Shown here piece after piece: positions 13,324 to 48,622 of a stretch of 48,871 bases of DNA (its first letter is position 1; every line of letters begins with the position of its first letter). Below the pieces are notes generated by a model. That model saw only the letters and a list, made by a program, of their open reading frames with translations. It ran no database searches and had not been told where the DNA came from. This stretch comes from Bacteriovoracaceae bacterium. GTDB lineage: Bacteria > Bdellovibrionota > Bacteriovoracia > Bacteriovoracales > Bacteriovoracaceae. The translations under genes were made by a program, and so were the position numbers. The stretch covers positions 1-48,871 of the forward strand of contig JADHTQ010000032.1 in NCBI GenBank assembly GCA_016784965.1, given 5' to 3'.

Positions 13324-16300
13324 TTAAATCTTACCCAGTAAATATTCCTTTCTCTTTTTCTCAGGAAACTTCTCGATGGCGTAGCGCAACATAGTCCTCG
13401 GCATTTTTTTATAGTGTTTTTTTAAGAAGTTCTCTTCAGTTTTGATATGTCGATTTCCAATCTCCCTTAACATCCAACCAACACCTTTGTGAATCAAGTC
13501 ATGATCGTCAGTCAGCAGGATCTTGGCAATTTTTAAAGAGTCATCAAAATGCAGTTGTTTGATAAAGTAAAATGTCGACAAGATGGCGATGCGCTTTTTC
13601 CACAGATCATCTGAGTTTGCAAATTCATAGAGTAGACTTTTATCTTTTTTAAATAGGTAGTCACCGACAATATGGTGGGCCGTCACATCCACCAAGTCCC
13701 AATTGTTGATGTATTTCACATTTTTTATATAGATTTTATAGATCTGCTCTTGCTGCGATTTTGTTACCTTTTTATCTTGATATTTATTGATCAAAATAAA
13801 AAGAGCACACATTCTTTCTTCGTGAAAGCTAGAGCGAAGCAGAGCAGTTGCATCCTCAATAGATATTTTTTTATACTTGCGTGCCACCTTTCTTATGTCT
13901 GGAACCTTAATTCCTAAAAATTTATCCCCCTCTCCATACTCTCCAGGTCCCGTTTTAAAAAAGCGCATTAACTCTTGTGCCTTTTTTTGATTGGCCGACT
14001 TTAAAAGCTCTTTTTTGACATCATCTAGCATGCTGACACTCTCAATAAGTTCAACTTTGGCAGCACAAACTTTAAACTCTGGAATTTTGGCATCTGGATC
14101 TAGGGCAGGGTTAGTAAGGCGGTTAGCTGGAGATTCTACAAAGTGAAAGGGAATATAGATTACACCGACTTGAATTTTTTTGGTCACAAAAGCGGGAATT
14201 TCAATCTCACCCCTTTTGCTAGAAACTTTTACTATTTGCTGGTTGGTAATCCCTAATTTGACTGCATCTGCTACCGAAATCATCACATGGGGTTTTCCTA
14301 ACTCATTTAAGCCAGATGTTTTTCTGGTCATGGTTCCTGTATGATACTGCGCTAACAATCGTCCAGTAGTCAAAGTAAGCGGATACTCTGGATCAGCTGT
14401 TTCCGCCGGGGGATTGTATTTTATAGGCATCATTTTCCCCTTGCCCCTGGCAAATTTATCAACATGTAATATCTTAGTTCCGGGGTGATTTGTGTCCGGA
14501 CAAGGCCACTGCAGGCCATCTTTAAGCTTGGTGATTCTATCCCAGGTTATTCCTTTATATTGGGGGGTAAGATCATTAATTTCTTTTGTTATGTCCTTTG
14601 TTTGAGCATAATTCCAATAATTGGCGCACATTTTATTAGCAATTGCTTGGACAATTTCCCAGTCAGGCATTGACTCTCCTGGCGCCTTAACCGCCTTTTG
14701 TTGTCTTTGTACGCGCCTTTCAGTATTAGTTATGTGTCCATCTCGCTCGGCAAATGACTGGGCCGGAAGCACCACATCTGCAAAGGCCGCTGTTTCGGTT
14801 AGAAAAATATCTTGAACCACCAAAAAGTCGAGGCGCTTTAGTGCTTCAATTACATGTGTTTGATCGGGATCGCTCAAGTAGGGATTTTCCCCCATAATGT
14901 ACATAGCTTTTATCTGTTTGTCATAAGCGTCGTTAAACATCTCAACAACTGTTAGACCTGGTTTTTTTGGCAAACTGGTTTTCCAATAGTGTTCAAACTT
15001 ACTTCTTACTTCATCGCTTGCAACCTTTTGATAACCTGGATAGTCTCCTGGAAGCCCTCCCATATCACATGCTCCCTGCACATTGGACTGCCCGCGCAGG
15101 GGATTAACACCTCCTCCAACTTTTCCGACATTACCAAGTAACATTTGTAAGTTGGCAATAGAGCGTACATTGTCAGAACCAGTAGTGTGTTGAGTAATTC
15201 CCATGGCATAAAAAACACTGGCGACTTTGGCATTGCCCATTAACTTGGCAATTGCCGATAGCTTTTTTGCAGGCACTTTAGAAACTTTTTCCACATTTTC
15301 TGGCCGGTAACTATCTGCCATAACAACTTTCATAAACTCTTTTAGACCTTCTGTTCTCTTTTTTAGATAATCTTTATCCTCCAGGCCCAGTCTAATAATT
15401 TCTTGCATAATGGAGTTTAAAACGGCCACATCAGTTCCAGGCAATTGTGCTGCGTAGATGGTGGCATAGCTTGCTATATCAATCTCTTTGGGGTCAATCA
15501 CGATGAGCTTTGTCTTATTGGCCCTGACTGCTTTTTTAATTCTTGCAGCAATTACAGGGTGTGCCGCAGAGGTATCGGAGCCAATAATTAAAATCACATC
15601 TGCTTTGTGAATTCCAGAGATATCATTGGTCATAGCGCCACTACCAAATGCTTGGGCCAGTCCCACAACGGTGGAGGCGTGGCAAAGCCTGGCACAATGA
15701 TCGACGTTGTTGGTCTGCATATCTTTTCTGACAAATTTTTGAAAAACAAAGTTGTCTTCGTTTGTTACTTTAGCAGAACAAAGTCCTGCAAATGCATCTG
15801 GGCCATGATCCTTTTTAACTTTCATAAATTTTTTAGCAACTATATTAAGTGCTTCATCCCAAGAGGCCTTGACAAACCGTCCATTTTCTTTGATCAACGG
15901 GTGTGTAAGCCGCTGCTTGCTTCCTACAAAATCAAAACCATGTCGGCCTTTTACACATAACATGCCTTGGTTGGTGATTGCTTTTTGATTGCCATTTACA
16001 CTGACGATAGAATCATTAATGGGGTTAATATGTAAATCCAACTTACAACCCACTCCACAGTATGGACAGACTGTCTCAACCACTTTTGGTGGCCACAATC
16101 TACCATGAGACTTGTCATTAGATGCTGTTAAAGCACCTACCGGGCATACTTGCACACACCCACCACACTGAACACAACTAGAATCTTTAACCAATAGACC
16201 ATTATCAAATATGATCTGCTCTTGAGTGTTTTTATCTTTAAATGAGAGCACTTCGTTTACTAACTGATCATTACAAGCACTCACACATAATCCGCAATGG

Positions 16301-18153
16301 ATGCATCTATTGCTGTCATGGTTTAAAAAAGGTGATGAGTTATCAATAGTCGCTTTGTGGCGTAATTTACTAAAAAATGTACTGTTGTCAACACTGTACT
16401 CTGTTGCATAATCTCTTAAATCACAATTAGTATTAACTGCACAGCCACACTCCAAACAGCGGGCGGCCTCACTTGTTGCATTTTCTTCTGCTCTAGGTCT
16501 CTCTACTTCTTCGAAACTTTTTCGCCTAATTTTTGGAGGTAACTCTGGGTTATTTGTTCTACTATTTACCTCAAAATGTTGATATTCCTTGACGGAGACA
16601 TCTTTGACTTTTAACTCTTTTTTGGCATCAAAAGGAGTATAGGACATTAATGGTTTTTTTTGGATAAAGCTATCAATCATATCAGCAGCAATTCTGCCGT
16701 CTGCTACCGCCTCAATAGCAGAAGCCGCTCCCCTTTTAAAATCACCGCCGGCAAAAATATTGGTGTCTTTTACATGCATTGTAAAATCATTTACATCTGC
16801 TGTATTCCATTTAGTCAGCGGAAAGTCTTGATCAAACATTTTGGTATCTGGGGTTTGAGAGATTGCCGCAATTAGGGTTTGGGCACTTTGTTCAAAAAAC
16901 TCTCCCGAAGGCATTGGACGTCTGCGCCCACTTTCATCTGGTTTTCCCTGAGTCATCTTCTCAAGTTTTACTTTTTTTAGCTTAGAGTGCTTATCTCCTT
17001 TTAGTTCAACGGGGTTGGTTAAAAAACTAAACTTGACACCCTCCTGTCTTGCGGCTTCTACTTCATAGGCTTCCGCGGGCATCTCATGTTCTGTTCTTCT
17101 ATATACCACCGTTACTTCACTTCCTAGACGAATGGCCACTCTAGCACAATCTATAGCTGTATTGCCCCCTCCTACAACTATCACCTGTTTGTTCACCTGA
17201 GGGTTTTTACCTAGGGCATGGGCCTTCAAAAAGTCAACGCCCAACAAAACTCCATTCAAGTTTTGCCCTTTGATCATAATTGGTACCGCCAATGAAGCCC
17301 CAATTGCCAAGTAGACGGCATCATACTCGTGGGATAGATCGGCAAGGCCAATTTCTTGTCCAATTTCAACATTGGTGGAAATGCTCATCCCATTTTGGCA
17401 CATCTGCTCAATCTCTTTATCCAAAACTTCTTTGGGAAGGCGAAATTGAGGAATTCCGTAGCGTAGCCATCCCCCAGGCAGCGGTGCGGCCTCAAAAACT
17501 TGTGCTTCATACCCTTTTAAGCTCAAGTAATACCCGCAGGTAAGGCCAGATGGCCCTCCCCCAACTATTGCCACTTTTTTATTTTTGGCGGGGGCCTTAA
17601 TTGGAGGATCAATTGGGGTCTCCATTAAAACTTTATCCGCGGCATGTCTTTTTAGTTGCCTAATGGCTACAGGATCTTCTACTAGACTACGCCTGCACTC
17701 CTGCTCACAAAAAGCGGGACAAATCCTGCCAACCGACATGGGCATCGGCAGTCTCTGCCTAATAACTCTCACTGCTTCTTGGTGATTACCCTTGGAAATA
17801 TGATAGAGGTATGATTGAATATCTACGTGGTCAGGACATGCTACTTGGCAAGGAGCATCGCAGTCGGCGTAGTGATCCCTCAAGATCTTCTCAAGTGCAG
17901 TTTTCACGTGCTTGGTTATCTGCTTTGATTTGGTAGTGACCTCCATATTCGAAGCAACTTTTGTTGTACAAGACAAAACTAAATCTGACTTTCCTTTTAT
18001 GTGAACTACACACAGATTACAAGACTGATTGGAAGTTAAATGATCTTGGTGGCATAAGTTAGGAATCAAAATACCATGTTGTTTTGCCGCTTCAAAAATG
18101 GTGGTATCTTTACTGACAGTAAGTAACTTGTCATTCAACTTAAATTTGATCAT
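13324..18153 (-). CDS. Single-chain NAD(P)-linked formate dehydrogenase fused to AlkD-type DNA glycosylase
   Basis: 1609 aa from the ATG at 18153 (GAGG 6 nt upstream). Domains in order: [2Fe-2S] domain (C34, C45, C48, C62); GltD-type Fe-S domain (C98, C102, C106, C145, C149, C153); FAD site VAIVGGGPSGL (about 194-203); NAD(P) site VIVVGGGNTAIDCARVA (about 324-340); two 4Fe-4S ferredoxin motifs (C617-C627, C660-C670); bis-MGD formate dehydrogenase with its own 4Fe-4S site (C696, C699, C703, C733) and catalytic Cys in ARLCHAST (C824, not selenocysteine). Formate oxidation could thus pass electrons to NAD(P)+ within one chain. From residue 1375 (14031 downward) a full 235-aa AlkD homologue follows in frame, with Trp111, Asp115, Arg147 and Trp186 in local numbering matching the catalytic set of B. 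cereus AlkD. The junction lies just where a formate dehydrogenase normally ends, so stop-codon loss between neighbours is likely. AlkD may also be made separately from the ATG at 14031 (GAGAG 7 nt upstream). Confidence 0.9.
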   Translation of the reverse strand: MIKFKLNDKLLTVSKDTTIFEAAKQHGILIPNLCHQDHLTSNQSCNLCVVHIKGKSDLVLSCTTKVASNMEVTTKSKQITKHVKTALEKILRDHYADCDAPCQVACPDHVDIQSYLYHISKGNHQEAVRVIRQRLPMPMSVGRICPAFCEQECRRSLVEDPVAIRQLKRHAADKVLMETPIDPPIKAPAKNKKVAIVGGGPSGLTCGYYLSLKGYEAQVFEAAPLPGGWLRYGIPQFRLPKEVLDKEIEQMCQNGMSISTNVEIGQEIGLADLSHEYDAVYLAIGASLAVPIMIKGQNLNGVLLGVDFLKAHALGKNPQVNKQVIVVGGGNTAIDCARVAIRLGSEVTVVYRRTEHEMPAEAYEVEAARQEGVKFSFLTNPVELKGDKHSKLKKVKLEKMTQGKPDESGRRRPMPSGEFFEQSAQTLIAAISQTPDTKMFDQDFPLTKWNTADVNDFTMHVKDTNIFAGGDFKRGAASAIEAVADGRIAADMIDSFIQKKPLMSYTPFDAKKELKVKDVSVKEYQHFEVNSRTNNPELPPKIRRKSFEEVERPRAEENATSEAARCLECGCAVNTNCDLRDYATEYSVDNSTFFSKLRHKATIDNSSPFLNHDSNRCIHCGLCVSACNDQLVNEVLSFKDKNTQEQIIFDNGLLVKDSSCVQCGGCVQVCPVGALTASNDKSHGRLWPPKVVETVCPYCGVGCKLDLHINPINDSIVSVNGNQKAITNQGMLCVKGRHGFDFVGSKQRLTHPLIKENGRFVKASWDEALNIVAKKFMKVKKDHGPDAFAGLCSAKVTNEDNFVFQKFVRKDMQTNNVDHCARLCHASTVVGLAQAFGSGAMTNDISGIHKADVILIIGSDTSAAHPVIAARIKKAVRANKTKLIVIDPKEIDIASYATIYAAQLPGTDVAVLNSIMQEIIRLGLEDKDYLKKRTEGLKEFMKVVMADSYRPENVEKVSKVPAKKLSAIAKLMGNAKVASVFYAMGITQHTTGSDNVRSIANLQMLLGNVGKVGGGVNPLRGQSNVQGACDMGGLPGDYPGYQKVASDEVRSKFEHYWKTSLPKKPGLTVVEMFNDAYDKQIKAMYIMGENPYLSDPDQTHVIEALKRLDFLVVQDIFLTETAAFADVVLPAQSFAERDGHITNTERRVQRQQKAVKAPGESMPDWEIVQAIANKMCANYWNYAQTKDITKEINDLTPQYKGITWDRITKLKDGLQWPCPDTNHPGTKILHVDKFARGKGKMMPIKYNPPAETADPEYPLTLTTGRLLAQYHTGTMTRKTSGLNELGKPHVMISVADAVKLGITNQQIVKVSSKRGEIEIPAFVTKKIQVGVIYIPFHFVESPANRLTNPALDPDAKIPEFKVCAAKVELIESVSMLDDVKKELLKSANQKKAQELMRFFKTGPGEYGEGDKFLGIKVPDIRKVARKYKKISIEDATALLRSSFHEERMCALFILINKYQDKKVTKSQQEQIYKIYIKNVKYINNWDLVDVTAHHIVGDYLFKKDKSLLYEFANSDDLWKKRIAILSTFYFIKQLHFDDSLKIAKILLTDDHDLIHKGVGWMLREIGNRHIKTEENFLKKHYKKMPRTMLRYAIEKFPEKKRKEYLLGKI

Positions 18154-18217
18154 AATAACCTCTTGAGCATATTTGCATAATTTAGACGACTTATATCCTA
18201 CACTAAGGAAGCGGAAA

Positions 18218-19207
18218 ATGAAAACACCTATTGCCATACTCGGAGCAACCGGCACGGTTGGTCAAAAAATTATAACTATGATGAAAGATCATCCCCTATT
18301 TGAAATAACTCAATTGGTGGCCTCTTCAAAAAATGTCGGAAAATGTTACGAGGATGCGGTGATTTGGCGAGAAAAAGAGGAACTACCAAAATCTTTGTGC
18401 AAAATAAAATTGATCTCTTTTGAAGATGTCACCGCCACTTATGCTCTATCCTCACTTCCTTCAGACGTTGCCCAAATCCAAGAAATGGAGCTAGCAAAGC
18501 GAGGCATTCATGTAGTGAGTAACGCTTCCGCTTATAGGATGGCAAAAAATGTGCCCCTAATAATTCCAGAAATAAATGCAGATCACATCGGCCTCATAAA
18601 AAAACAAGATACCAAGGGTAAAATTATTACCAATCCCAACTGTGCCACAGTTTTTTTATCACTGGGAATACTCCCCTTACTCTCTGTGGGAGAAGTTAAA
18701 CATATAAGTACCGTCACCTTACAAGCAGTAAGTGGTGCAGGATACCCCGGAGTGCCCTCAATCGACCTAATAGGAGATACTATTCCCAACATCGGTGGGG
18801 AAGAAGAAAAGGTAGAATCTGAAAGCAAAAAAATATTGGGAGGCCTTGATCGCTTTTGTGACTTTAGTATTACCTCTCACGTAAACCGTGTACCTGTTGC
18901 CCATGGACATACAGTTGCAATCCATGCTTACTTTGCAAGCGATGTAACGGTAGAGCAGGTTCAAGTCGCCCTCTTAGAAAAAATGAAACAGTTTCCCGAC
19001 TTGTACAAGTATCACCAAGACCCATTTAGGCCCAGGCCTCGTCTTGATTTAGACCCATTAGATCAGCGGGCGCATATTGGTAGATTAAAGCAAGGAGATG
19101 CCCCCAATATCGTAGGTCTTGTCTCCATGGGACACAATTTGGTGCGTGGGGCAGCAGGTGCTGCCAAGCTAAACCTGGAACTACTACATAAGACACTAAA
19201 AAACTAG
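18218..19207 (+). CDS. asd: Aspartate-semialdehyde dehydrogenase, archaeal/fungal type
   Basis: 329 aa from the ATG at 18218, preceded by GGAAGCGGAAA; an earlier in-frame ATG at 18173 would run into the leader of the divergent gene. It reduces aspartyl-4-phosphate to aspartate semialdehyde with NADPH, feeding lysine/DAP, threonine and methionine synthesis. Visible: NADP loop GATGTVGQ, catalytic Cys in NPNCATVFLSLG, and the LQAVSGAGYPGVPS and GGEEEKVESES segments typical of the archaeal/fungal form (TIGR00978-like). It is the first gene of the lysine cluster and is divergent from the formate dehydrogenase gene. Confidence 0.94.
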   Translation: MKTPIAILGATGTVGQKIITMMKDHPLFEITQLVASSKNVGKCYEDAVIWREKEELPKSLCKIKLISFEDVTATYALSSLPSDVAQIQEMELAKRGIHVVSNASAYRMAKNVPLIIPEINADHIGLIKKQDTKGKIITNPNCATVFLSLGILPLLSVGEVKHISTVTLQAVSGAGYPGVPSIDLIGDTIPNIGGEEEKVESESKKILGGLDRFCDFSITSHVNRVPVAHGHTVAIHAYFASDVTVEQVQVALLEKMKQFPDLYKYHQDPFRPRPRLDLDPLDQRAHIGRLKQGDAPNIVGLVSMGHNLVRGAAGAAKLNLELLHKTLKN

Positions 19208-33008: not shown

Positions 33009-34324
33009 TAACTTACAAACTCCACATCGAGGTAGTGAGCTGAGCAAGAAATGCATGGATCGTACGATCTAACCAACATTTCAAGTGCCAAGCGCATTTC
33101 ATCTTCTGATTTATCTGCAGCTAACAACTCTGGAACCAATTTATCAAAATCTTTTTGAATATTGGCATGATTTTGGTTTGTGGGTATAATACAATTTGCT
33201 TTTACACACATCCCATCATTATCGTATTCGTACTCGTGGTATAAGATTCCACGAGGCACTTCAGTTGCACCTGCACCTTTTGCAAACTTAGTGGGAGCAA
33301 CTAGTCCTTCTTCTTTTAGGCCTGTGGCCAGTAGCTCATCAATTAGTCTTAATCCCTCATAGGCAGAGTGAGCAACCTCAATCAATTGCGCCACACTGTT
33401 CATATAGGGGTTAAAGCAAGGTGCTTTAAAGCCAAACATTTCAGCAATTTTTAAGGCCTCTGGATGCAGTTGCCCTATGTTGTTATTCACACGGGCCAGT
33501 GCTCCGGCCATGTAACTTTCCATTTTATTTTTACAGTACTTGGCAGTGGAGTTCGGAGATACCCATTCATTGGTTACCTTCTTGTAATCAGAAACTGGGT
33601 AGCGCTGCTTTTTGCCATCTGGCATGATCGTTTGAATTTGGCCATCATACATGCCGTACTCTTCGTCACTTGATAGTGCCATGTACTCAGTTTGTCTTTC
33701 AAAGGCGGGAACTTTACCTGCCACTGACAAGACTGTCTCAACAGTTGCAGTAAGATCTGGTACTGCGGCCACAAGTTTTTCTTTTAGTGCTTTTAAGTCC
33801 TCTGCTGTAGGTAGTTTTGTAAACCCACCGGGAACAACCGTAGTTGGGTGTGTAGTTCTACCTCCAATCAGTGAGCCCCACTCATGACCTAATCGCTTTA
33901 AGCGCAGTGCCCTTTTTACAATTTCGGTGTGAGTTGGAATCAAAGGAAACACCGATGGTGCGCCAAAAAGATCTGGAGCAACTAGGAAGTATACGTGCAG
34001 TACATGCGAGTCAAAGTTTTCTGCATGCTTTAGTAAACTTCTAAGTTTTGTGGTTTGAGTAGTATTTTTTATGCCAAGAGCAGCTTCAGAGGCCTTAACT
34101 GAAGCGAGGGTGTGCCCCACAGAGCAAATGCCACAAATCCTACTGGTAATTCTGGCCACTTCAGAATAGTGGCGGCCTCTTACCATTGATTCGAAAAATC
34201 TTGGAGCTTCTGGAACCTGCCAGGTACACTCTTCAACTTTTCCGCTTTTAATATTCACTTTAATATTGCCGTGTCCTTCCACCCTGGTTAGGTGGTGTAC
34301 ATCAATGTTGATATCTTTTTTCAT
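33008..34324 (-). CDS. hydA: Group 3b [NiFe] hydrogenase, large (alpha) subunit
   Basis: 438 aa. N-terminal nickel ligands in RICGICSVGH and C-terminal ligands in DPCISCSAH form the Ni-Fe site. Eight residues follow that His and should be cleaved by the protease encoded next. The TRVEGHGNI start is typical. With HydB, HydG and HydD it forms the soluble NADP-linked bidirectional hydrogenase (sulfhydrogenase) of group 3b. The start overlaps the hydD stop (ATGA). Confidence 0.94.
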   Translation of the reverse strand: MKKDINIDVHHLTRVEGHGNIKVNIKSGKVEECTWQVPEAPRFFESMVRGRHYSEVARITSRICGICSVGHTLASVKASEAALGIKNTTQTTKLRSLLKHAENFDSHVLHVYFLVAPDLFGAPSVFPLIPTHTEIVKRALRLKRLGHEWGSLIGGRTTHPTTVVPGGFTKLPTAEDLKALKEKLVAAVPDLTATVETVLSVAGKVPAFERQTEYMALSSDEEYGMYDGQIQTIMPDGKKQRYPVSDYKKVTNEWVSPNSTAKYCKNKMESYMAGALARVNNNIGQLHPEALKIAEMFGFKAPCFNPYMNSVAQLIEVAHSAYEGLRLIDELLATGLKEEGLVAPTKFAKGAGATEVPRGILYHEYEYDNDGMCVKANCIIPTNQNHANIQKDFDKLVPELLAADKSEDEMRLALEMLVRSYDPCISCSAHYLDVEFVS

Positions 34325-35070
34325 GCATCACTCCTACAAAAAGCTGTAAAAATTCTCGACTTATGCTTAGCGCGCGCCTCTGGTAATTTTCCCTTCTTGA
34401 TGAGAACTTTTTCCATGGCCTCTTCATTGGGATTATCGACAAATCCACGACAGGCCTCACAAGGAATTCCATCGGCAGGACATGGTGCCCGACAGCCGGC
34501 CCTTGCAACAGGTCCTAAACAGTGGTCGCCTTCAAAGTAGCGGCAAATAGTCTCGTTATGTTTACACTCTATACAAACTGGATGATTGGGGATCACGGGC
34601 TCTTTGCCATGAACGAGGTGAGACACAATATCCAAAAATTCATATTTATCCATCGGACAACCGTATACGTTGTAATCAACTTTTATAACCTCTGAGATTG
34701 GTACTGCACGGTCGTTACTGTAAAGGTGGGGCATATTTCTATCCTCACCATAAACATCTTTTCTAAAATCTTTTTGGTGATTTTTTAGAGCATTAACTCC
34801 TGCAGTAGAAGCACATGCACCGTAAGCGATGACAATATCTGATCTTTCTCTGATATTCTCCAGGCGCCCACGATCAGCTTCTCTGGTAAAGCTTCCCTCA
34901 ATGCAGGCAATAGTCAAGTGCTCGGCCGTCTCAGTCATCGCCTCTCGAAATTCCACGATATCGATATGGTTAAGAAGTTCCACAAATGCCGCATCACCAT
35001 AGTTGGTAAGTTCAATCTGGCACCCTTCACAACTGGCAAAATCAAAAAATCCTACTTTTGGTTTACTCAT
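34321..35070 (-). CDS. hydD: Group 3b [NiFe] hydrogenase, small (delta) subunit
   Basis: 249 aa, no Tat signal, so cytoplasmic. Proximal-cluster cysteines in FASCEGCQIEL, AYGACAS and VYGCPMD; medial and distal clusters in VCIECKHNETIC, CLGPVARAGCRAPCP and CEACRG. It passes electrons from the Ni-Fe site toward the flavin subunit. Its start and stop both overlap neighbours. Confidence 0.93.
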   Translation of the reverse strand: MSKPKVGFFDFASCEGCQIELTNYGDAAFVELLNHIDIVEFREAMTETAEHLTIACIEGSFTREADRGRLENIRERSDIVIAYGACASTAGVNALKNHQKDFRKDVYGEDRNMPHLYSNDRAVPISEVIKVDYNVYGCPMDKYEFLDIVSHLVHGKEPVIPNHPVCIECKHNETICRYFEGDHCLGPVARAGCRAPCPADGIPCEACRGFVDNPNEEAMEKVLIKKGKLPEARAKHKSRIFTAFCRSDA

Positions 35071-35903
35071 TATAGCGCCTCCTCTAGTTGTTTTAAGTCA
35101 GTATAGTTAAATACTGGACCATCGATGCAGACGTACTTATCGTTGATCTGACAATGGCCACATTTTCCCACACCACACTTCATTCTGCGCTCTAAATCTA
35201 AAAATATATTATTTTCTTTAACTCCTGCTTTTTTAAGTTCTCTGATTACAAATCTAAACATAATGGGAGGTCCACATATGACCACCTTACTATCCGGCTT
35301 AACTGTCGCCTCTTTAAATAAATTTGTAATGACACCAACTTTTCCTTTCCACTTATCATTGCCTTTATCTACAATTTCGTGAAAACAAACATCGGATGAG
35401 CCTCTCCAAAGTTTCAAGTCATCTTGAAACATCTGCTCCTCAGGATTTCTAGCTCCATATAAAAGGGTGAACTCTTTAAAGCTCGCTCGCTCATCCATGA
35501 TATATTTAATCAAACTTCTAGTTGGACAAAGACCAATTCCGCCGGCCACAACTACGACGTTGTGTCCCTTTAGCTCGTCAATGGGGAACCCATTGCCAAG
35601 TGGCCCTCTAATAAGCATCGTGCCGCCCTCTTCTAAGCGGTTAATCGCCGTGGAGACACGTCCAACAGTTCTTACTACTATATCAAAAGTACCGTTACTA
35701 CTGGTAGGAGAGCTTGCCAGACCAATCGGAATCTCACCGTAACCCATGAGAGATACTTCTAAAATTTGTCCCGGTGCATATTCGAACTTGGCCCCATCTG
35801 CCATTTTTAGAGTAAAATGTTTTTCTCTTTCAGTGACTTGGGCAGCTTTAACAATTTTTGCTTCCTTAGGGACAAAAATGTTCTCTTCGCAATGACATCC
35901 CAT
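35070..35903 (-). CDS. hydG: Group 3b hydrogenase, FAD/NAD(P)-binding (gamma) subunit
   Basis: 277 aa, ferredoxin-NADP reductase type. FAD region around IGLASSPTS, NAD(P) site VVVAGGIGLCPTRSLI and a C-terminal [2Fe-2S] site RRMKCGVGKCGHC with a later Cys in YVCIDGP. It transfers electrons between NADP(H) and the Fe-S chain. Two nt separate it from hydB, and its stop overlaps the hydD start (TAATG). Confidence 0.93.
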   Translation of the reverse strand: MGCHCEENIFVPKEAKIVKAAQVTEREKHFTLKMADGAKFEYAPGQILEVSLMGYGEIPIGLASSPTSSNGTFDIVVRTVGRVSTAINRLEEGGTMLIRGPLGNGFPIDELKGHNVVVVAGGIGLCPTRSLIKYIMDERASFKEFTLLYGARNPEEQMFQDDLKLWRGSSDVCFHEIVDKGNDKWKGKVGVITNLFKEATVKPDSKVVICGPPIMFRFVIRELKKAGVKENNIFLDLERRMKCGVGKCGHCQINDKYVCIDGPVFNYTDLKQLEEAL

Positions 35904-35905
35904 AT

Positions 35906-36937
35906 CTACACCTCCATTATTTTGTTAATAACGTTAACAGGGTCAGCAATATCAGAAGTACATGACATCGAACATCGCCCACAGCCAACACAAGCAGGGC
36001 CCCCAAGCTTAGCGTTTAGATAAGTTGTTTTTCTCATAATTCGATGCCTAAATCTATCACCTCTTTTTTCTCTAAAGTTCTCTTGGGCCCCAAATCCCAG
36101 AGAAATTTTAGCGAAATCTTCAGTGAGGCACCCGTCCCATTTTCTAGTTCTTGTGCCGGATACTTGATCGACATTCCAGTTGTCTTGTACATCAAAACAG
36201 TAACAAGTTGGACACACTATATTGCAAGACCCGCATGAAAAGCAATCTTTGGCACAATCCTCCCAAAAGGCAGTGTTGTTAAAAGCTTTGCGCACTTTAT
36301 TGGCCACAGATTCATAGCCTACATAATCTAAAACTTCAGGGCATTTACCCATTACGCGATTATTGACATCTAATGCGTTGGACTCATGCTCCTTTTTAGC
36401 TTTAGTAAAAGTACCAAAGCTTACCAAAGCTTCGCCCTTGTCCGTATAGGTTTCAAAGAGGTAGCCATCATCAATTTTGGTTAAAAAAGCATCGTGCCCC
36501 TTGGGTTTTACATGTACACCAACTGTTCCAAAAAATGCTCTCTCGGCAATATTTTGTACGTTGGAGCCGACAATGGTCGCAGCTTCCCTATGCGCCATAT
36601 AATTTATATCTCTATGATTTTCATTATACAATAGATCGGTCATATCGAGGGCCTTGATATCATAAAAGTGCACCCCAAAGAGGATCTTTTCTTCGACATT
36701 TACGCAACCTTCAAACTTATCGCCTTCGAACTTAACGATAGGTTGACACGTCGGGAAAAATTCCTTTTTTGGAGGCAGGACTGTTACGTCATAATCTAGC
36801 CTCAACTCCTTAGAGTTTTTTAACTTCTCAAAAACAAACCTACTTTTTTTGGCGACGGGGCCAATCACTTGCTTTGCCTCGACCAGCTTTGTCACAAAGG
36901 TCTCAAAATCTTGGGCCTTTATAAAATACTTATTCAT
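35906..36937 (-). CDS. hydB: Group 3b hydrogenase, Fe-S (beta) subunit
   Basis: 343 aa, first gene of the operon; related to anaerobic sulfite reductase subunit A. Two 4Fe-4S sets: DCFSCGSCNIVCPTCYCF and GPACVGCGRCSMSC. The order hydB-hydG-hydD-hydA equals that of the Pyrococcus furiosus hydBGDA operon. No hypA-F maturation genes are in the window, so they must lie elsewhere. Confidence 0.92.
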   Translation of the reverse strand: MNKYFIKAQDFETFVTKLVEAKQVIGPVAKKSRFVFEKLKNSKELRLDYDVTVLPPKKEFFPTCQPIVKFEGDKFEGCVNVEEKILFGVHFYDIKALDMTDLLYNENHRDINYMAHREAATIVGSNVQNIAERAFFGTVGVHVKPKGHDAFLTKIDDGYLFETYTDKGEALVSFGTFTKAKKEHESNALDVNNRVMGKCPEVLDYVGYESVANKVRKAFNNTAFWEDCAKDCFSCGSCNIVCPTCYCFDVQDNWNVDQVSGTRTRKWDGCLTEDFAKISLGFGAQENFREKRGDRFRHRIMRKTTYLNAKLGGPACVGCGRCSMSCTSDIADPVNVINKIMEV

Positions 36938-43288: not shown

Positions 43289-44920
43289 ATGAAAAATATC
43301 AGAGCGTTTTTCTACATTAGTGTCATCGCGGCGTGTTTTCTAACACTTAATTTTTCTATTGCCGGCAATGCTTTTTATCAAGAAGATCAAACGGCCAGTG
43401 AACTCCCCCAATCACCCGTTTTAAAACCTGTCTACCGGCCGGTTGTCAAAGCGGTAAAAAAAGTACAATACCAAAAAGTCAAAAAAGCTCCAAGGGCACC
43501 GGTAATAAAAACGTCCCAATCCTCCCATTTTTCATTTCCTGAAGCGGAGTATACAATCGCTGCCAAAAATGGGGCAAATCTCAAAGAGGCACCAAATGTT
43601 TACTCCCAATCTATCGCTTTTGTGCCCAATAACTCAAGCGTTAAAGTAAGCTCTAGTAGAGATGATTGGAGTTATGTAGAGGGCTACTACGAGGGTTGGG
43701 TTGCCTCTCAATTCCTACAGGAAACCTCTCAAGCTGGTAAATATCGCATCGCTGTCAGAAGAGGCTCGCTCAATATGCGCAGCGCACCTAGCACCAAGTC
43801 CATGCGCGTTGCTCAAATTCCTCGTGGCACAGTTGTTATTGTCAACAAAGTTACAAGGCAGTGGAGCAAGATATATTGGTACTACGAGGGTTGGCTCCAA
43901 ACATACTTATTGCAAAAAATTGCTCGAAAACCTTCTCCAATTTCGAGTTGGTGGAGTAGTCTTTTTAAAAAAAATACCAAGTCGTCGCCACCACCAAAAA
44001 AATCCAATATGTATAAAGTCACCGCCAGAAACGGAGTGAACTTAAGGCAAACTCCAAGCACCTCGGGTAAACTTTTAACTGTAGTACCAAACAGGGCACT
44101 AGTAAAAGCTACACAACATAAAAAAGATTGGATCAAAGTTAAAGGCTCCTTGAAAGGATGGATACCATCAGAATTTCTCCAAGTAAGCTCTACTGGAACA
44201 TACAGAATCGATCTAGATCAAAGAACATTCGAATTAAAGGCCAGTCCCAGTTATCAAGCAAGAGGGGTCGGCAAAATCTCCAACTACTCTACGGTGGAAG
44301 TAAGAGACAGTCGAAATGATTGGCACCTGGTAACCTTGAACTATCACGGGTGGGTGTTTACAAAATTTCTGCAAAACACCTATAGGGCGCCAGCTGCTGG
44401 CACAAAGTTCTACTCTGAATATATTTTTAACATTGAAGATCAAAGGGGATTTATCGGCCTTGGAATTTTAAAGTCCATCATCGACGAAGATAATATAATC
44501 CCTTCAGTCGCACCAATGACCCTCGGCTACGATTTTCCCATCGAAAAACATACCAAGGCGTGGTGGGCCGTTGACATCCGCGCTGCAGTCCAGTTTTATT
44601 CCCATTTTTCAGCAACAACAGGACTCAATGCATTTGGCCTATACCTCGGTCCCCTGTGGTATTTAAAGTTTTCTAAACATTCAAAGCACGCCATCTCTAT
44701 GGCCACGTGTGCTGGAATTAGCTATTTGTCAGGTAATAGCACCTACAACGATACCGCTTTTAATACTGTGAACCTGTCGTTTGTATGGTCACTGGCCTAC
44801 GAGTACCAGACTAAGAAGCTAATTATCTCCCCAGAGTTTTTGGCAACATATATTTATGATACACAATATCCTACATTGCAAGCAGGTGCCTCACTAAACA
44901 TTATCTACCCCTTTAAATAG
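43289..44920 (+). CDS. SH3b-repeat / outer-membrane barrel protein, paralogue 1
   Basis: 543 aa. A signal peptide (residues 1-26) and a Pro/Lys/Val-rich linker are followed by four SH3b-like repeats (about 88-144, 151-208, 241-298, 304-362), each ending in a Gly-Trp pair plus FLQ-like residues. Repeats alternate: 1 and 3 end in type A (EGYYEGW, KGSLKGW), 2 and 4 in type B (YWYYEGW, TLNYHGW). The C-terminal 165 residues (about 380-543) form a beta-barrel shared with two neighbours (RGFIGLGILKSII, AWWAVDIRAAVQFY, YLSGNS, final NIIYPFK). SH3b domains commonly bind peptidoglycan, so it may tether outer membrane to wall. Ribosome site AAGAGGAT. Confidence 0.82.
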   Translation: MKNIRAFFYISVIAACFLTLNFSIAGNAFYQEDQTASELPQSPVLKPVYRPVVKAVKKVQYQKVKKAPRAPVIKTSQSSHFSFPEAEYTIAAKNGANLKEAPNVYSQSIAFVPNNSSVKVSSSRDDWSYVEGYYEGWVASQFLQETSQAGKYRIAVRRGSLNMRSAPSTKSMRVAQIPRGTVVIVNKVTRQWSKIYWYYEGWLQTYLLQKIARKPSPISSWWSSLFKKNTKSSPPPKKSNMYKVTARNGVNLRQTPSTSGKLLTVVPNRALVKATQHKKDWIKVKGSLKGWIPSEFLQVSSTGTYRIDLDQRTFELKASPSYQARGVGKISNYSTVEVRDSRNDWHLVTLNYHGWVFTKFLQNTYRAPAAGTKFYSEYIFNIEDQRGFIGLGILKSIIDEDNIIPSVAPMTLGYDFPIEKHTKAWWAVDIRAAVQFYSHFSATTGLNAFGLYLGPLWYLKFSKHSKHAISMATCAGISYLSGNSTYNDTAFNTVNLSFVWSLAYEYQTKKLIISPEFLATYIYDTQYPTLQAGASLNIIYPFK

Positions 44921-44935
44921 ACTTGAAATTGATTC

Positions 44936-47146
44936 CTACTGTAGTGGATAAATTACATTGATAGTGCCACCCCATTGCAGCAGTGTATGCTTTATATCAT
45001 AGATATATGTCCAAAGAAGCTCAGGTGAAATTATTACTTTTTTGATGGGAAACTCATAGGATACCGATAATAAAACGGCAAAATTAACAGAGTCAAAAGA
45101 CACTTTTTTATTAATAGAATTGCCCGAAAGGTAATTAACTCCCAAACCTGGGGATATGGCAATTCCACTAGTAAAAATATTTTTAAAAGATAATCGCCAA
45201 ATGGGGCCCATATAAAGTCCCAATGAATTTATCGCAGTATCTTCAGTTAAATGTGTAAAATACTGCATAGTCATACGCATATCAGATGCCCACCACGCCT
45301 TATTATTTTTAAAAGTCGGATAATCAAACCCTATGCGTATCAGTACTACTGAGGGAAGTAGCTCTTTTGATTCGATAAAAGAGGTCAAAAGACCCACGCC
45401 TAAAAAAATTCTCATCTCATTTAGGCGTACATTGCAGATCCCAAATCGATCTTTAGCACTTTGCTCATCTTTGTCTGGTTCTTCTACTGGTGGGCGCATA
45501 ACAAAAAGGGCACTGGAGGGTATCATGCCATGCCAACCAACTAGAGACCATCCATTTATTGTCTGCTCAATTATAATTGTACTGTTACTTGGAAGTGTAG
45601 TGATCACTTCTGTATCTTCGCTTGGACCCACGTGCAGCTTAAATTTTTGCTTGCCTGTATTATATGTGGCCTCTTTTAGATACTTTGCAGGCACCCGGCC
45701 CTTGTGGTAAGTGCTAACTACCCCCCACTCACTTCCCATGCTATCTGGTTGCAGTGCAAAGGTAAAATTTGCAGATGCAGTTCCCTTCCACCAAACTGAT
45801 ATCCAGTCATTGGCAATCTTATCCACTACTACTACTGTACCACTTTTAAGCTTTGCAATAACTTTTGGGTCATCATGGGTGGAGGTAAGTAGGTCCACAG
45901 TTTGAGAGTGATCTATAACTTTATATTTACCAGTTTTTTTATATGGGCCCTTTAGAAGTTTAGAGGGCACCCATCCCTTATGATATCCACTAACAAGGCC
46001 CCATTCAGAATGCTCCACCACTTTTGCTTTTTGCTCCATTGTTGGTAACTGGGGGGCCTTGACGGGAGCTTTGACGTGGGTTTTGTCGGAAGCTTTGACG
46101 GAGGCCTTGGCCATTGTAGTTTTATAAGTTGTTGGAACAATCTGTGCAGTACACGTGTTGCTTAGATCGTCAAGGGTAGAGCTTTTCTTAGAGTCAACAA
46201 CAACTTCGTCGAGTTTACTCAAAGAGTCCGAAGGCACCCACCCTACAAAACGCCAATTTATTAAGCTCCACAATTTTTTCCTTTTAACAACACTTACCGT
46301 GGTTTTGTTGGGTACACTAGTGACTACACTTCTATTTTTTCCGAGGGTACTAAACAGGGTTACAGTTGCTAAACTAGACTTAACTTTGTATTTAGAGGCC
46401 TTACTTTTTGTCTTTTTAAGAAGTTTGGAGGACATCCAACCACTATAATGACCTTTTACTAGACTCCAATTATTTTTACTTCCATAAACTCTAATTGTTG
46501 AGCCAACTGGAATATGGGTAATAATCCTTGCAGATTCCTTGGCCATTGTTCTAACCTTTAGCCCGCTTGTAGAGTTGACTCTATAATTCCCCGATGAAAG
46601 TTTAGATCCATCAGCTACTTTTATAGGTACATTGACATCTGCGGATTTGCTCGTATTGAGAAACTTAGAACGCATCCACCCTTCATATTTCCAGCTAACC
46701 GATGTCCAGTCGTTAAAGCCCCCCCTTATAGCAACAGTAGAGCTATCGGGAATGAATGTAATAGTGTGGGCTTCAGAGTTTGGCTCCATTTGTAATCTCA
46801 GCTGCCCAGGGTATGGAACCATAACTTTGCAGGTTTTTTGCATGTGAGTTTTTAACAAAAAGCGAGACAGTACCCAGCCAGTTAACTCACCTTTTGCAAA
46901 AGACCAATCACCTTTGCTTTTTGTAACCTCAATTAAAGATTGATTGGGAATTGTAGTAACGTTTTTTGCATTTGAATCAGGTCTACTTAGTAAATAAATG
47001 CCTATCCCACCAGGTGCAAAAACTTTGTAATGACCAGGTGGCAGACATGTATTTTTTCCATCTTTGGCCGTATCAACTGCAAATGTAACAGTTGCCAAAG
47101 CGAGGCAAAGAAGTATCGTGACGATCCTAACTAGTAAGTTGATCAT
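44936..47146 (-). CDS. SH3b-repeat / outer-membrane barrel protein, paralogue 2 (largest)
   Basis: 736 aa from the ATG at 47146; an in-frame TTG lies at 47161. A signal peptide is followed by eight SH3b-like units in A-B order: full A/B pairs at about 39-163 and 176-299, then a Thr/Lys/Ala/Val linker and two shortened pairs at about 377-454 and 461-538, in which the A units keep only their last strands (SEWGLVSGYHKGW, SEWGVVSTYHKGR). The C-terminal barrel (565-736) matches paralogues 1 and 3 (FLGVGLLTSFIESKE, AWWASDMRMTMQYF, YLSGNS, NVIYPLQ). It is convergent with paralogue 1 and divergent from paralogue 3. Confidence 0.82.
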   Translation of the reverse strand: MINLLVRIVTILLCLALATVTFAVDTAKDGKNTCLPPGHYKVFAPGGIGIYLLSRPDSNAKNVTTIPNQSLIEVTKSKGDWSFAKGELTGWVLSRFLLKTHMQKTCKVMVPYPGQLRLQMEPNSEAHTITFIPDSSTVAIRGGFNDWTSVSWKYEGWMRSKFLNTSKSADVNVPIKVADGSKLSSGNYRVNSTSGLKVRTMAKESARIITHIPVGSTIRVYGSKNNWSLVKGHYSGWMSSKLLKKTKSKASKYKVKSSLATVTLFSTLGKNRSVVTSVPNKTTVSVVKRKKLWSLINWRFVGWVPSDSLSKLDEVVVDSKKSSTLDDLSNTCTAQIVPTTYKTTMAKASVKASDKTHVKAPVKAPQLPTMEQKAKVVEHSEWGLVSGYHKGWVPSKLLKGPYKKTGKYKVIDHSQTVDLLTSTHDDPKVIAKLKSGTVVVVDKIANDWISVWWKGTASANFTFALQPDSMGSEWGVVSTYHKGRVPAKYLKEATYNTGKQKFKLHVGPSEDTEVITTLPSNSTIIIEQTINGWSLVGWHGMIPSSALFVMRPPVEEPDKDEQSAKDRFGICNVRLNEMRIFLGVGLLTSFIESKELLPSVVLIRIGFDYPTFKNNKAWWASDMRMTMQYFTHLTEDTAINSLGLYMGPIWRLSFKNIFTSGIAISPGLGVNYLSGNSINKKVSFDSVNFAVLLSVSYEFPIKKVIISPELLWTYIYDIKHTLLQWGGTINVIYPLQ

Positions 47147-47290
47147 AGTAAATTTTATCAAAATAACATTTAGGGGTAAAGAGTTAAATATGCAGGCCTT
47201 TGTCCTTTACCCCCAAATATAATTTTGGTAAAATGTCATCAAGCATTAACAACTATACACAGGGTTTTGGCCACGGATATTAGTAGAATA

Positions 47291-48622
47291 ATGAAGCTTT
47301 CAAATTCTTTTTCTTTTTTCAAAGTTACTATTGTGTTGCTGTTTATACTCATTAACGGTGTTTTGGTTGCTACTGCCCAAGATAAAAAGAAGGCCCCCAA
47401 ACAGTCTTTTTCTCAATTTCTTAAGTCTATTTACCAAAAACTACCCTTAAATCAACCAAAATCAAATGCTGGAAAAAAGACCAAAGCACAAAAGAAAACT
47501 AAAAAGGCGGCCAGCAGTACATCTCCTTCAAACCTTATACGACCCGGCAGATTCATCATTGTTTCAAAATTGGGCTTCGGGATAAATCTAAGAGAAGATC
47601 CCGATGCAAGTGCTAGGGTCTTGGCCGTTATTCCAGACAAGTGGGACGTGGAAGTTTTAGAAAGTCAGAAAAATTGGAGTCTAATTCAAGGTTCTCTTAA
47701 CGGATGGCTCCCCTCACCTTTTTTACACCGTCCCTTTTTTAGCAATGAATATATTGTAAAGGCCCCAAAACTTGGCAAATTAAACTTGCGCAAAACTCCA
47801 AATAAAGATGGTGTCATCATCTCCACTATACTTGATGGCCAGGGTGTCGTTTCCCAAAAAAAACAGGGAGAATGGAAGTATGTTACCTGGTATTTTTCCG
47901 GTTGGGTATTTTCAAAACTACTTAGACCCATTAAAATCACCTCCGTTCCTATAAAAAGTACAAAGGTCGCTGTGAAGGGTGATGAAAAAGATGATGAGGA
48001 TGATGGAGAGGAAGAGGAAGAAGATGAAGATGAAAATGAAGATTTAGAGGAGGAAGAAGAAAAAGAGGAAGAAGAGGTCGAAAAGGGAAACAAAAAGAAG
48101 TGGACATTTGAGTCGCCTCTTTCAAAGATTCATTTAGATAGTCAAAGATTTTTCTTAGGTCTTGGGTATCTAAGCTCCATCTCTGACGCAGATGATGCAC
48201 TCCCCTCTGTCGTACCCATGCGTATGGGATATGATCATCCTCTTGCCAAAAGTAATCCTGCTTGGTGGGCAACTGACCTTCGAGCTATCTTTCAAATCTA
48301 TACTCGATTATCCACTGATACTGGTCTTTACTCTATCGGTTTATATCTTGGGCCTATCTGGCATTTTAGTTTCAATAAAAGTTTTAAGCATGCACTTTCA
48401 ATTTCTACTTGTGTTGGCATGAATTATCTATCTGGTAATAGTCTCAAAAAAAATGTTACCTTTGATTCACTCAATTTTTCTTTTTTGATAACGGCTGCGT
48501 ATCATTATCCTATCAAAAGATTTCATATCTCTCCTGAGCTTAATTTTAATTACATTTATGATGTTAGTCGGCCGCTTGTGCAGTGGGGGGGGGCTTTGAA
48601 TATCATTTATACAATTGAGTAA
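47291..48622 (+). CDS. SH3b-repeat / outer-membrane barrel protein, paralogue 3 (acidic linker)
   Basis: 443 aa from the ATG at 47291; an upstream GTG/ATG-type frame from 47225 lacks a better ribosome site. A signal peptide is followed by a Lys-rich linker, one A unit (about 86-145, GSLNGW) and one B unit (152-212, TWYFSGW). A run of about 40 mostly Glu/Asp residues (229-267) then leads into the shared barrel (about 280-443: RFFLGLGYLSSISDA, AWWATDLRAIFQIY, YLSGNS, NIIYTIE). The acidic run could bind cations or act as a spacer; that is inference. Confidence 0.82.
   Translation: MKLSNSFSFFKVTIVLLFILINGVLVATAQDKKKAPKQSFSQFLKSIYQKLPLNQPKSNAGKKTKAQKKTKKAASSTSPSNLIRPGRFIIVSKLGFGINLREDPDASARVLAVIPDKWDVEVLESQKNWSLIQGSLNGWLPSPFLHRPFFSNEYIVKAPKLGKLNLRKTPNKDGVIISTILDGQGVVSQKKQGEWKYVTWYFSGWVFSKLLRPIKITSVPIKSTKVAVKGDEKDDEDDGEEEEEDEDENEDLEEEEEKEEEEVEKGNKKKWTFESPLSKIHLDSQRFFLGLGYLSSISDADDALPSVVPMRMGYDHPLAKSNPAWWATDLRAIFQIYTRLSTDTGLYSIGLYLGPIWHFSFNKSFKHALSISTCVGMNYLSGNSLKKNVTFDSLNFSFLITAAYHYPIKRFHISPELNFNYIYDVSRPLVQWGGALNIIYTIE

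Follow-up and report, generated by a model that had tools for sequence, protein, structure and literature searches.

Three adjacent paralogues of a Bacteriovoracaceae bacterium joining SH3b repeats to a common predicted outer-membrane barrel: candidate wall-to-membrane tethers

Gene layout and domain plan

The window analysed here (48,871 nucleotides) was one entire contig of the 4.59 Mb draft genome (97% complete) of a predatory-type bacterium of the Bacteriovoracaceae. ORF analysis of positions 43289-48622 identified three full-length, intact genes. Paralogue 1 (43289..44920, plus strand) encoded 543 aa, comprising a signal peptide, four SH3b repeats (aa 86-147, 150-213, 240-301 and 303-366), a linker and a C-terminal barrel domain (aa 380-543; 44426..44917, plus strand; 164 aa with eight predicted strands). 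Paralogue 2 (44936..47146, minus strand, 736 aa) carried a signal peptide, four complete and three to four degenerate SH3b repeats, and the barrel (44939..45430, minus strand). Paralogue 3 (47291..48622, plus strand, 443 aa) possessed a signal peptide, two SH3b repeats, a long and strongly acidic linker, and the barrel (48131..48619, plus strand). The hydrophobic signal peptides at the three N-termini were identified by inspection only.

Genes 1 and 2 were convergent and 15 bp apart, and genes 2 and 3 divergent, so the three do not form a single operon; the minus orientation of the middle gene was missing from the preliminary description of this DNA. The reading frames of paralogues 2 and 3 opened at TTG codons (47161 and 47225, respectively), but the likely start codons are ATG 47146 (minus strand) and ATG 47291 (plus strand), which we preferred because they result in clean signal peptides as read from the sequence. 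Between them lay a divergent intergenic region of 144 bp (47147..47290), in which, we infer, the promoters of both genes must sit. The preliminary description had proposed three adjacent paralogues sharing a signal peptide, SH3b repeats, a variable linker and a common C-terminal barrel. The adjacency was borne out by three complete ORFs holding the only three copies of the barrel in the genome, and the shared plan by SH3_3 matches in every protein and by barrel identities of 41-50%.

SH3b repeats, barrel domain and their distribution

A Pfam scan matched SH3_3 (PF08239) in proteins 1, 2 and 3 with E-values of 6e-35, 1e-26 and 2e-11 and bit scores of 119.6, 93.3 and 44.3, all above the curated cut-off of 27 bits. 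A repeat HMM built from the four SH3b repeats of protein 1 and run on all three proteins recovered four repeats in protein 1, two in protein 3 and eight stretches in protein 2, of which four were complete and four partial or degenerate (one of the latter at E=0.038). The repeats of paralogue 2 are decaying, an indication that the array is under weak constraint, which weighs against the anchoring role proposed below. In the structure prediction of full-length protein 1, the four SH3b units formed confident folds (pLDDT about 75-85), with the mutual orientation of the domains not fixed by the model (pTM 0.29). Foldseek placed a YrvJ-YacD model at the top of the matches to this prediction (3e-7) and ranked the endolysin phiSM101, which also bears SH3b, lower; YrvJ of B. 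subtilis is an SH3b-bearing wall amidase. Sequence search against the PDB gave weak SH3b matches to wall-acting proteins.

The last ~164 residues were 41-50% identical among the paralogues (41% and 49% to the domain of protein 1), and the motifs listed in the preliminary description reappeared in their alignment: GLG/GVG, PSV, AWWA-D-R, YLSGNS and N-[IV]-I-Y. AlphaFold2, run on the three-sequence alignment, returned eight strands (pLDDT 78, pTM 0.71), and Foldseek with this model listed OmpA, NspA, Ail, OmpX, OprF and PagL among its matches (OmpA at 7e-7 and TM 0.70; values for OmpA and NspA between 7e-7 and 9e-7, for Ail 4e-6). The domain is thus predicted to adopt an OmpA/OmpX-like fold of eight antiparallel strands, in support of its earlier designation as a barrel. 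All three proteins ended in Q-x-G-x-x-[LI]-N-[IV]-I-Y, in keeping with a Bam-type beta-signal, with the qualification that a loose form of the pattern arose in 4.5% of shuffles of the last 20 residues of one barrel. A strand-alternation score placed the barrels above most controls, but the SH3b part of paralogue 2 also scored high, and we give this measure little weight. PHROGs, NCBIfam, PADLOC and PDB sequence searches assigned the barrel to no family, in agreement with the preliminary description, which recognised no named family for it.

A search of the whole genome with the barrel found exactly three copies, all in the genes described here (E=1e-45 or better), a similarity far beyond chance. 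Profile searches of 59 relatives and of all 369 genomes of the phylum found no convincing relative; phylum-wide matches were fragments only (E>=5e-4), carrying stops or lying within unrelated proteins. No relative was found in GTDB genome contigs, viral contigs or plasmids either. SH3_3 matches at E<=1e-4 numbered 19 in the host genome versus 0-4 per genome in 58 sampled family members, so SH3b use has expanded in the host lineage.

A second set of proteins in the same genome (L010, L011, L013, L015 and L020) joined one to four SH3b repeats to a C-terminal domain of ~210 residues belonging to a single family. This domain looks barrel-like, with alternating strands, a final aromatic strand in some members and a weak match of one member to OMP_b-brl (0.008). 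A shared origin of the first and second barrel types was considered and rejected, as hhalign gave no match between them. A sixth copy of the second domain in the genome (L058, C83:41268-41921) lacked SH3b repeats, as did distant members of the family in five other genera. L058 and the distant members instead had an N-terminal domain of ~75 residues with the pattern N-P-x-I-K-x-W...G-T-x-L-x-I, which resembles LysM; members with such an N-terminus in other Bacteriovoracaceae genera were L047-L051, L053, L055 and L076. Pfam gave no match that would identify these N-termini as LysM, and their best PDB match, at a non-significant E=0.13, was SafA, a LysM protein; the resemblance to LysM is thus one read from the sequence. 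A LysM-resembling domain on related barrels is what would be expected if wall binding is the shared role. Another genus (genome G030) encoded a 378-aa SH3b protein with a barrel-like C-terminus (L098).

A proposed wall-anchored barrel and its alternatives

We propose, with a probability of roughly 60%, that the three proteins are outer-membrane barrels anchored to peptidoglycan through their SH3b repeats, a reading in which localisation, topology, binding and tethering are all deduced. Each protein would be exported by Sec, and its eight-stranded C-terminal barrel would insert into the outer membrane with both ends periplasmic. From what is known of eight-stranded barrels, an even strand number combined with a signal peptide would place both ends, and hence the SH3b part, in the periplasm; the structural model and this topology support the arrangement first suggested, with the barrel in the outer membrane and the SH3b part on its periplasmic side. 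The N-terminal array of two to about eight repeats, together with a flexible linker, would form a stalk that binds peptidoglycan non-covalently, either linking outer membrane and wall or fixing the barrel in place, as with OmpA, OmpM and LysM-bearing barrels. Differing repeat numbers and linkers may produce stalks of different reach. Owing to the second SH3b-barrel set, tethering is better supported than the preliminary description could show. The failure to find any relative of the barrel counts against it, as there is nothing to show selection on the arrangement. Ligands of SH3b domains vary, and none of the sources consulted demonstrated SH3_3 binding to a Gram-negative meso-DAP wall. The genome also encodes Pal-like and OmpA-family proteins (eight PF00691 matches), so an extra tether is not obviously needed; the SH3b-barrel proteins would supplement the usual ones.

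Among the closest parallels in layout is OmpM of diderm Terrabacteria, in which a periplasmic SLH wall domain at the N-terminus is followed by a stalk and a C-terminal outer-membrane barrel (PMC10628300). Both systems place an N-terminal periplasmic wall-binding domain and a linker or stalk ahead of the barrel, but OmpM uses SLH and a trimeric porin barrel, whereas the proteins described here use SH3b repeats and an unrelated eight-stranded barrel; a Pfam scan found no SLH domain in them. Since OmpM is reported absent from Gracilicutes (PMC10628300), the SH3b-barrel proteins would be a separate invention. YeeJ and intimin likewise carry a small periplasmic wall-binding domain, LysM, N-terminal to an outer-membrane barrel (PMC5595812). 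They differ in having an inverse autotransporter barrel and an exported passenger, whereas our proteins have SH3b and stop at the last strand, with no C-terminal passenger. OmpA and OprF, among the best Foldseek matches, combine an eight-stranded barrel with a periplasmic wall-binding domain, but theirs is OmpA_C at the C-terminus rather than SH3b at the N-terminus, and the Pfam scan that detected PF00691 elsewhere in the genome found none in the three proteins. The nearest envelope precedent for an SH3b domain held at the outer membrane is TagV of Serratia, a lipoprotein with one SH3b that is proposed to bind peptidoglycan (PMC7614798); it differs by its lipid anchor, its single SH3b and its role as a T6SS accessory. 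The preliminary description had suggested a possible new type of wall-to-membrane tether. A tether remains plausible, given that YrvJ was the best structural match of the SH3b array, but "new type" was too strong with OmpM (SLH) and YeeJ/intimin (LysM) already established. What is new is that SH3b is paired with a barrel, that this pairing recurs with a second, unrelated barrel, and that it has expanded in a lineage-specific way; no paper describing an SH3b or SH3 domain joined to an outer-membrane barrel was found in the literature searched.

Alternatively, the barrel may be the working part, serving as an adhesin, a small pore, a receptor for prey or phage, or a surface variant, with SH3b only stabilising or placing it and tethering a side effect. 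The eight-stranded matches include the adhesins and surface proteins Ail, NspA and OmpX, the barrel is better conserved among the paralogues than the SH3b part, three differing copies lie side by side as in diversifying surface proteins, and in YeeJ the contact of LysM with peptidoglycan supports a surface adhesin (PMC5595812). However, the extracellular loops modelled by AlphaFold2 were only 4-9 residues long, unlike adhesive loops; we consider a working barrel possible but rather unlikely. The SH3b repeats might instead bind periplasmic proteins or peptides, in which case the molecule would act as a sensor or scaffold and not as an anchor to the wall. Peptide binding is common among SH3 folds, and the degeneracy of some repeats would agree with such a role, but the Foldseek matches of the SH3b units, and more weakly the sequence matches, were to cell-wall-acting proteins, and barrels of the second family bear LysM-resembling domains in place of SH3b, leaving this explanation improbable.

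The barrel might also be a PagL, a lipid A deacylase with an eight-stranded barrel of similar size, or a degenerate descendant of one. Paralogue 2 matched PF09411 at E=0.001 with 19.6 bits, below the cut-off of 23, and PagL was among the Foldseek matches (TMt 0.61-0.68; rank 25 with the barrel model). Paralogues 1 and 3 gave no PF09411 match, and matches at E<=0.01 occurred in 16 of 97 related genomes, three of them above the cut-off and several visibly to other barrels. Comparison by hhalign with L059, a genuine PagL from this phylum, gave no similarity, and the catalytic motif H-x-S-N, present as H-F-S-N in L059, was absent from all three barrels. With the sub-threshold match attributable to background, we rejected PagL identity and regard a deacylase or its descendant as very improbable.

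Returning to tethering, a broader and more tentative suggestion, which we would not yet favour, is that the Bacteriovoracaceae lineage built its own stalked outer-membrane tethers. Two or more unrelated barrel families would then have been fitted with SH3b arrays, giving eight such proteins in a single genome, with a LysM-like domain apparently swapped for SH3b in one of the families, as a Gracilicutes counterpart of OmpM whose stalk lengths might match envelope remodelling. Detailed knowledge of how the outer membrane is attached to the wall in diderm bacteria comes from few lineages, and an SH3b-barrel set in Bdellovibrionota would add another, independently assembled solution. Two, four and about eight repeats on one barrel provide a natural series for relating stalk length to envelope spacing, and the same reading offers a hypothesis for further multi-repeat SH3b proteins of Gram-negative bacteria.

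Other features of the window

A 1643-aa ORF (13324-18255, minus strand) encoded an NAD-linked formate-dehydrogenase-like molybdopterin oxidoreductase with a complete C-terminal DNA_alkylation (AlkD-like) domain (aa 1413-1630, E=1e-64), an odd fusion. A four-gene operon (33011-36937, minus strand) encoded a sulfhydrogenase-type NiFe hydrogenase with its 4Fe-4S, FAD/NAD, small and large subunits. Directly after paralogue 3, at the contig end (48650-48871), a unit of ~14 bp (GTGATCGGTTTGAA) was repeated three times in tandem, and beyond it began an ORF whose product resembles a transposase-associated protein.
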